A DNA stretch of 64,000 nucleotides. Origin: Bacteroidetes bacterium ADurb.Bin217. GTDB taxonomy: Bacteria > Bacteroidota > Bacteroidia > Bacteroidales > UBA1715. The stretch spans positions 1 to 64,000 of the forward strand of contig MWCJ01000007.1 of the NCBI GenBank assembly GCA_002069975.1. Direction: 5' to 3'. The position numbers and the translations under genes are program-made. The notes below the pieces were generated by a model, which saw nothing but the letters and a program-made list of their open reading frames with translations, ran no database searches and had not been told where the DNA came from. Each line of letters opens with the position of its first letter. Position 1 is the stretch's first letter. Below, piece by piece: positions 46,015 to 51,713 of this stretch.

Positions 46015-46695
46015 TTATTGGTTAATTTCAAAAAGAGTATCTCCTTGCATTACGCTTTGACCAATTTCAACAGTAATTGATTTTACAACACCATCTTTAT
46101 CTGCCAATATGTTATTTTCCATTTTCATAGATTCCATTATTAATAGAGTGTCTCCTCGTTTTACTTTTTGTCCTACTGAAACTAATGTTTTTAATATTAC
46201 TCCAGGTAAAGGTGATGTTACCAAATGTTTTCCATTAGTATTGGAGGCAGAAGCATTTGTTTTTGAGGATTGCTTAACAACTTCAACACTACCTTCAAAA
46301 TCTATTAAAATATCACCTTGCATTACTGTTTGATCAACATTAATATGCAATGCTTTTACAACACCATCTTTTTCAGCTGTTATATTATTCTCCATTTTCA
46401 TAGATTCCATTATTAAGAGAATATCACCCCGTTTTACTTTTTGTCCCTTTGTTACAAGTATTTTTTTAATTACACCAGGAAGAGGAGATTTAATAGCCGT
46501 AGGAATTGTTATTGGAAGTGGAGGTGTAGCTATAGATGATACTGTTTTTATACCACTTATTGTTGAAGTTTCACTTTTTTCTATTTCAACAGTAAACGGC
46601 GTGCCATTTACTTCTATTTCAACAATATTTTTATTTACCTCATGTATAGAAACTTCAAAAGAACTTCCTTCTATTGTGAATTTGAATTTTTTCAT
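46015..46695 (-). CDS. biotin carrier subunit with two tandem biotinyl domains
   Basis: This 226-residue protein has an N-terminal beta region (about 1-60) like other decarboxylase carrier subunits, then two biotinyl domains: about 68-133 with the biotin site MESMKMEN at Lys100, and about 159-226 with the same site at Lys191, joined by a Ser/Asn/Lys linker (about 135-157). Normal carriers of this class have one domain. Both copies keep the lipoyl/biotinyl fold residues [13 protein letters not shown] and VMQGD. The carrier shuttles carboxybiotin between the MmdA transferase and the beta subunit. Confidence 0.93.
46018..46494 (-). repeat. 273-bp-offset direct repeat encoding the two biotinyl domains
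   Basis: Domains at 46297-46494 and 46018-46221 are direct repeats offset by 273 bp. A 24-bp block around each biotin site (46119-46142 and 46392-46415) is identical at DNA level, so the duplication is recent or kept similar by recombination or selection. Confidence 0.85.
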
Positions 46696-50514: not shown

Positions 50515-50545
50515 AAAGGGAATTCGAAAGGGTTCCCTTTTTTTT
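50515..50545 (+). terminator. intrinsic terminator 8 nt before the SET-recR start
   Basis: AAAGGGAA (50515-50522) pairs with TTCCCTTT (50533-50540) around a 10-nt loop, followed by T. It ends the oxoamine synthase transcript and lies 8 nt before the SET gene ATG. Confidence 0.75.
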
Positions 50546-50553
50546 GAACTATC

Positions 50554-51096
50554 ATGTACGAACATTTATTTACTAGTGAAAATATTTCTGTAGAAAGTAC
50601 TTGTGAATATAAACATGCAGGTTTGTATGTAGATGAAAGTATATATGTGCCCAATCAACAAGCTCTGCGTACTAAAGAATTTATTCCAGCTCAAACAGTA
50701 TTAAGTATTCAGCAATGTGCGTTGTCAACTCATCGAACACGTACTTCAATACAAGTTACGGAATTGTTTCATGCCGAAGCCGACGATTGTATTCGTTTTG
50801 CTAACCATAGTTGTCAGCCCAATGCCGCTGTAATTTCAAAATATATTGATGGGGCTGCGTATGTTACTATATTATTAGTTTCTGTTCGCGATATAATAGG
50901 TGGCGATGAAATTCAATTTGATTATGCAAGTACCGAAACGACTCTAACAAAAGAATTGTTGTTTGCTCCCTGTTTATGTAATTCACCATTGTGTCGAAAG
51001 GTTTTGACAGGTTTTTCGGAATTAACACCTACACAAAAAGACCAGGTGGCAGCAACTCTCCCTGTAGCATCTCATATTCTTAAATTGTATGTATGA
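50554..51096 (+). CDS. SET-domain protein, predicted protein-lysine methyltransferase
   Basis: The 180-residue protein is a compact SET domain. It has the N-terminal GLYVDES...LRTKEFIPAQTVL strand pair, the SAM/active-site motif RFANHSCQPNA (NHSC at 84-87), DEIQFDY (118-124) with the catalytic Tyr, and a post-SET-like Cys cluster CLCNSPLC (Cys140, 142, 147) that with Cys87 could bind zinc. SET proteins are mainly eukaryotic, with scattered bacterial members. Its stop overlaps recR by 4 bp (ATGA). No signal peptide, so it acts in the cytosol. The substrate is unknown. Confidence 0.87.
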   Translation: MYEHLFTSENISVESTCEYKHAGLYVDESIYVPNQQALRTKEFIPAQTVLSIQQCALSTHRTRTSIQVTELFHAEADDCIRFANHSCQPNAAVISKYIDGAAYVTILLVSVRDIIGGDEIQFDYASTETTLTKELLFAPCLCNSPLCRKVLTGFSELTPTQKDQVAATLPVASHILKLYV

Positions 51097-51713
51097 ATCA
51101 GTATGAATATCCATCGAAAATTTTAGAACAAGCTGTTTTAGAAATTGCTAAATTACCAAGTATTGGAAAAAAAACAGCATTGCGACTTGCTTTACATATT
51201 TTAAAACAAGATGTAGAGTATGCTCAAAAGTTAAGTGATGCTATTATTCATCTTAAACAATCTATTCAATTTTGTCGTGAATGTCATACAATATCCGATA
51301 CAGAATTGTGTGATATATGTGCAAACCCTAAACGCGATACGTCTGTTGTGTGTGTAGTTGAATCAATCAAAGATGTGTTTGTAATTGAACAAACTCATCA
51401 GTTCAAAGGTGTGTATCATGTGTTGGGAGGAGTTATTTCGCCTATCGATGGTGTTTCGCCTCAAGATTTGACTATTGAAAGTTTACTAGAACGAATAACG
51501 ACTCATGCAATGAAAGAAATAATTTTTGCATTACCCGTAACTATCGAAGGTGATACAACTTGTTTTTATATATACAAAAAAATTCAAGATAAACCTATTG
51601 TGGTAACCATGCTTGCACGGGGAGTTGCTGTTGGAAACGAATTGGAATATACCGATGAAGCAACTTTGGCACGTTCTATTAAAGATAGAGTAGCTTATTC
51701 CGGTTCAAAATAA
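51093..51713 (+). CDS. recR: recombination protein RecR
   Basis: RecR works with RecO (and RecF) to load RecA in gap repair. The 206-residue length is normal. It has the helix-hairpin-helix LPSIGKKTALRLALHIL, a Cys4 zinc finger CRECH...CDIC (about 57-72), a Toprim domain with VVESIKDVFVIE and YHVLGGVISPIDG, and a C-terminal Walker-like LARGVAVGNELEYTDEATL. It is translationally coupled to the preceding SET gene. Cytosolic. Confidence 0.97.
   Translation: MNQYEYPSKILEQAVLEIAKLPSIGKKTALRLALHILKQDVEYAQKLSDAIIHLKQSIQFCRECHTISDTELCDICANPKRDTSVVCVVESIKDVFVIEQTHQFKGVYHVLGGVISPIDGVSPQDLTIESLLERITTHAMKEIIFALPVTIEGDTTCFYIYKKIQDKPIVVTMLARGVAVGNELEYTDEATLARSIKDRVAYSGSK

Follow-up and report, generated by a model that had tools for sequence, protein, structure and literature searches.

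Compact bacterial SET proteins (PF00856; annotated as SET domain-containing protein-lysine N-methyltransferases) consist of a SET domain and a post-SET segment without a pre-SET region, are ~160 to 180 amino acids long, and carry NHSC and CxCx4C motifs. BurB of Burkholderia thailandensis has this compact form and is a methionine S-methyltransferase that acts on free methionine (PMC12542666). Histone lysine methyltransferases with a post-SET segment, such as DIM-5, MLL, SETD2, and ASH1L, share the NHSC motif, an F/YDY motif, and a zinc site of four cysteines. In archaea, methylation of MC1-alpha, a chromosomal protein, by Go1-SET of Methanosarcina mazei (reviewed in PMC3980110) is a precedent for a prokaryotic SET enzyme whose proposed substrate is a DNA-associated protein of the cell itself. 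Here we describe a compact SET gene that lies directly upstream of the recombination mediator gene recR in a 64,000-nucleotide stretch of contig MWCJ01000007.1 from Bacteroidetes bacterium ADurb.Bin217, called the window below.

The window protein resembles each of these systems in part. It has the length, architecture, and motifs of the compact bacterial SETs, but its clade is set apart by the motif RTRTSIQV, by a 16-residue loop between the catalytic Tyr and the first post-SET Cys, and by a pairing with recR that is unmatched in the sampled SETs. BurB (9l4t, 9l4v) is the nearest solved structure and has the DYASTE segment and the post-SET cysteines in common with it; however, BurB is nearer another subclade, its loop is 3 residues shorter, its His138, Met122, and Leu92 differ, and its genomic setting is another one. 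The histone enzymes align with the window protein at Z scores of about 11 to 12.5, but the window protein has neither their pre-SET nor their chromatin modules, its GxG motif is degenerate, and the channel aromatics are only partly kept. Go1-SET is alike in being a prokaryotic SET enzyme with a proposed DNA-associated target, and a pairing with recR is not reported for it in PMC3980110.

The SET gene occupies positions 50554 to 51096 of the forward strand and runs from ATG to TGA, encoding 180 amino acids. It matches the Pfam SET family (PF00856) with 35.3 bits (E value, 1.6e-8; curated cutoff, 22.4 bits), and this is the only SET match in the source genome, which is 98% complete. The complete recR gene follows on the same strand (51093 to 51713; 206 amino acids) and was identified by TIGR00615 (E value, 1e-68), with helix-hairpin-helix (HhH), Cys4 zinc finger, Toprim, and C-terminal domains. 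As the preliminary description had stated, the stop codon of SET overlaps the start codon of recR by 4 bases, in an ATGA at 51093 to 51096 (+), from which we infer that translation of recR is coupled to that of SET. A terminator-like hairpin followed by a T-run (50515 to 50545, +) lies between SET and the upstream gene, which encodes a pyridoxal phosphate (PLP)-dependent acyltransferase of the serine palmitoyltransferase/BioF type, so that SET and recR look like one transcript. The second genome of the genus has a similar hairpin sequence in the corresponding position. The T-run ends only 8 bases ahead of the SET start codon, which leaves no obvious room for a promoter. A scan for sigma-70 promoters at the SET start returned nothing convincing; promoters in the Bacteroidota differ from the type scanned for. 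Elsewhere in the window, the biotin carrier protein of a decarboxylase cluster (46015 to 46695, −) has two tandem biotinyl domains, each with an ESMKMEN motif, and its copy in a sister genome (L023, 665 to 1087) has a single such domain.

The catalytic core of the window protein is intact. The motifs named in the preliminary description are all present: NHSC, the SAM-binding core, at residues 84 to 87 (50803 to 50814, +); DEIQFDY at residues 118 to 124, ending in F122-D123-Y124 (50917 to 50925, +), which places Phe at the Phe/Tyr switch and provides the catalytic Tyr; and CLCNSPLC at residues 140 to 147 (50971 to 50994, +), which supplies the post-SET cysteines in a CxCx4C arrangement. Together with Cys87 of NHSC, the expected fourth zinc ligand, C140, C142, and C147 complete the post-SET zinc site of a protein that has no pre-SET region. 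Eight of these residues (N84, H85, S86, C87, Y124, C140, C142, and C147) do not vary among the 13 family members. NHSC and the post-SET cysteines are likewise constant throughout an alignment of 42 sequences, and they are also kept in 28 distant bacterial and archaeal SETs. The clade signature RTRTSIQV (residues 61 to 68; 50734 to 50757, +) is near-invariant in the same 13 members and recurs, minus its first Arg and last Val, in a sister protein from the Methylococcaceae. An AlphaFold2 model (pLDDT, 92.2; pTM, 0.86) is uncertain only in the first 20 residues, and a Foldseek search with it returned SET structures of the beta-clip fold as all of the top matches. The ratio dN/dS was 0.06 to 0.24 in five within-genus pairs, a sixth pair being saturated. 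Because of this ratio and a pLDDT of 92, a chance open reading frame can be ruled out.

Departures from the canonical enzyme concern the N-terminal SAM motif and the lysine channel. The preliminary description had set store by the SAM-binding residues; NHSC and Tyr124 are retained, but the GxG loop is degenerate, reading N34-Q-Q36 (NQQALR) in the window protein and mostly G-E-K (GEKAL) in its relatives. Within the aromatic channel, F122 and Y124 are kept. Position 53, which we take to be the channel Tyr of the YxG motif on a presumed mapping to the human enzymes, is Gln in the window genus and Phe or Tyr in the other genera. Three residues before Gln67, Thr64 replaces an aromatic residue throughout the family, at a position occupied by Tyr, Phe, or His in many relatives. 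The degenerate GxG together with Gln53 and Thr64 leaves room for a target other than plain lysine. Phe122 was placed at the switch position by alignment with DIM-5; Phe at this position matches the trimethylating enzymes and would allow di- or trimethylation.

Conservation of the pair was assessed in 14 species genomes from four genera of one Bacteroidales family of uncultured gut and digester bacteria. SET is present in 13 of the 14, each time as the gene immediately preceding recR and in the same orientation. The two genes overlap or lie within ~15 bases of each other in 11/13, with the exact ATGA overlap in the window genome; in two members of genus g4 the gap is ~105 to 120 bases. An apparent internal stop in genome G001 was traced to a match running past the true stop, and the same gene is intact in L023. 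Around the pair the neighborhood is fluid, with six types of upstream and eight types of downstream neighbor. Across the four genera, at least 12 changes occurred at the outer junctions versus none between SET and recR; thus, only the pair has been kept. If the three junctions were equally breakable, the chance of 0/12 breaks falling at the inner one would be roughly (2/3)^12, or ~0.008, an estimate to be read with the caveat that the overlap itself may harden this junction against breakage. Trees of SET and of RecR recover the same genus groups throughout, with SET diverging faster (75 to 80% identity in close pairs versus 95 to 97% for RecR). Uniqueness of the pair to the window genome, which the preliminary description had named as grounds for refutation, is contradicted by these counts; conservation across the Bacteroidota is likewise not supported, the pair being limited to one family. 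Its persistence there hints at a joint function.

The exception within the family is informative. In the 14th genome, G004 (locus L103), SET is absent and recR stands directly behind pfkA. Since pfkA lies upstream of the SET-recR pair in a relative of the same genus, G004 represents a clean loss of SET, from which it follows that the gene is old in the family yet dispensable. It is a natural loss usable as a comparison. Downstream of recR at this locus, a gene judged MutY-like by eye is convergent with it.

Outside the family the pairing disappears, while SET genes do not. No SET gene was found near recR at 29 other Bacteroidales recR loci from other families. Among 80 SET loci, recR lay within 5 kb in family members only, with 68 others lacking it, and it was absent within 1.5 kb at 29 further SET loci sampled at class level and 31 at phylum or order level. 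In total, 128 other bacterial or archaeal SET loci lacked the pairing. The family profile matched 9/295 genomes of the order, 4 of these 9 from the family itself, and SET matches occurred in 35/295 genomes of the class and 87/395 of the phylum. The latter counts contradict the earlier view that such genes are rare in bacteria outside some pathogens, at least for the Bacteroidota; because bacterial SETs are common, it is the pairing with recR that is the special feature. In a quick tree the paired SETs formed one group (support, 80), which joined a Methylococcaceae protein with support of 99. This protein, the closest SET outside the family, is encoded in a metagenome-assembled genome (L034, 3311 to 5501) at a locus that contains no recR and adjoins two genes that look TerD-family-like by eye. 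The relationship hints at a single older horizontal transfer, in one direction or the other. A recent horizontal gain by the window genome alone was rejected because the two trees share every genus group. Scanning of genome contigs with a single-protein query found nothing, and an alignment query retrieved relatives. Neither viral contigs nor phages yielded a relative of the window SET, and plasmids carried distant SETs only, in 9 records and with identities of at most 37% across a portion of the protein. In the literature searched, no description of a SET-recR pair was found; co-mention of recR and a SET domain there concerns PIWI families. The conserved pair thus appears to be undescribed.

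We tentatively favor the explanation that the gene encodes a functional SET methyltransferase that is made with RecR and acts on RecR or one of its partners. The intact core, the predicted SET fold, the purifying selection, and the retention of the pair despite turnover of its neighbors support a functional enzyme. According to this model, a compact SAM-dependent SET methyltransferase would have joined recR in an operon before the members of one Bacteroidales family diverged. It would be translated together with recR and would methylate a lysine, either on RecR itself or on a protein that RecR meets, such as RecO, SSB, or a nucleoid protein, and the mark may tune recombination mediation. The broader proposition, that in this lineage a dedicated enzyme from the same transcript methylates lysine in RecR or a RecR-bound protein and thereby controls homologous recombination, is on present evidence unlikely. 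The candidate substrates of the preliminary description (RecR, RecO, SSB, and HU) gained no positive support: no RecR lysines tracked the presence of SET when SET-bearing genomes were compared with G004 and others. Lysines K20, K27, and K162 of RecR are invariant in the family, but they are kept in G004 and are K or R in many RecR proteins outside it and are therefore not specific. Literature searches on RecR lysine methylation and on Bacteroides lysine methylomes gave nothing useful. Also counting against a target in the RecR pathway are the best structural match, which is BurB, and the Gln53, Thr64, and degenerate GxG described above.

A small-molecule substrate, such as a free amino acid or metabolite, is a serious rival, though a less likely one; the position before recR would then provide constitutive, coupled expression only. 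BurB was the top structural match by both Foldseek and VIA-align, with Z scores of 14.5 (9l4v) and 13.7 (9l4t) versus 12.5 for the best histone enzyme. Both proteins share a compact architecture and the DYASTE and CRxxxTGxxEL segments, and related SET genes belong to cassettes that also encode ATP-grasp ligases and ABC transporters. BurB is, however, the only compact bacterial SET among the solved matches seen, and so ranks first partly by default. Its core fragment scored 74.5 bits with another subclade (the STEW clade) versus 49.5 with the window family, and the loop that connects Tyr124 with the first post-SET Cys has 16 residues in the window protein and 13 in BurB and that clade. In BurB, loop residues Val130 to Arg133 and His138 make Met and SAM contacts, with His138 touching the adenine (PMC12542666). 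These contacts are absent from the window protein, in which the loop is longer and His138 is Leu141, and BurB has Leu92 where the window family keeps the Asn of NHSC (Asn84). The subclade scores, the longer loop, and these replacements exclude BurB orthology. The window SET may still act on a small molecule, but a metabolic role leaves the retention beside recR unexplained. Distant small SETs of the BurB-like subclade (L189, 2848 to 7109; L190, 773 to 4809; L191; L092; and L100) lie in cassettes that combine ABC transporter proteins with an ~490-amino-acid fusion of ATP-grasp (Dala_Dala_lig_C) and SET; L190 adds a second ATP-grasp enzyme and L189 a third SET gene. These cassettes are a possible peptide or amino acid modification system.

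Operon pairing can serve expression alone, and the enzyme might methylate a protein unrelated to recombination, such as a protein of the ribosome or the cell surface, with recR acting as a stable housekeeping neighbor that fixes its expression. The missing RecR lysine signal, the family genome that does without SET, and the faster evolution of SET than of RecR are all in keeping with this view, which we nevertheless regard as rather unlikely, and the survival of the pair through at least 12 changes of outer neighbors in four genera speaks against it. Much less probable is a noncatalytic SET that serves RecR by binding or by translational coupling. The degenerate GxG loop, the Gln53 of the window genus, and the overlap or near contact with recR in 11/13 genomes would suit such a partner, but NHSC, Tyr124, and the zinc cysteines have stayed unchanged while the proteins diverged strongly, which points to catalysis. 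Finally, a secreted effector aimed at host chromatin, the role proposed for NUE and RomA, would be compatible with the SET domain and with the origin of several relatives of the window genome from animal guts (one is from a digester); conserved coupling with a cytosolic repair gene and the occurrence of the gene's relatives in many environmental bacteria and archaea make it very improbable.

Bacterial SET enzymes are common, and their endogenous substrates are hardly known. Here, a SET gene is tied to one identifiable partner throughout a family and has been lost naturally once, which narrows the candidates to a few (RecR, RecO, and SSB) and provides a built-in comparison. Were the substrate a metabolite, the small-molecule branch of SET enzymes would be widened. 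If a target in the RecR pathway were confirmed, lysine methylation would enter the control of bacterial recombination, and this family would carry a eukaryote-like methyl mark on a core bacterial repair complex.
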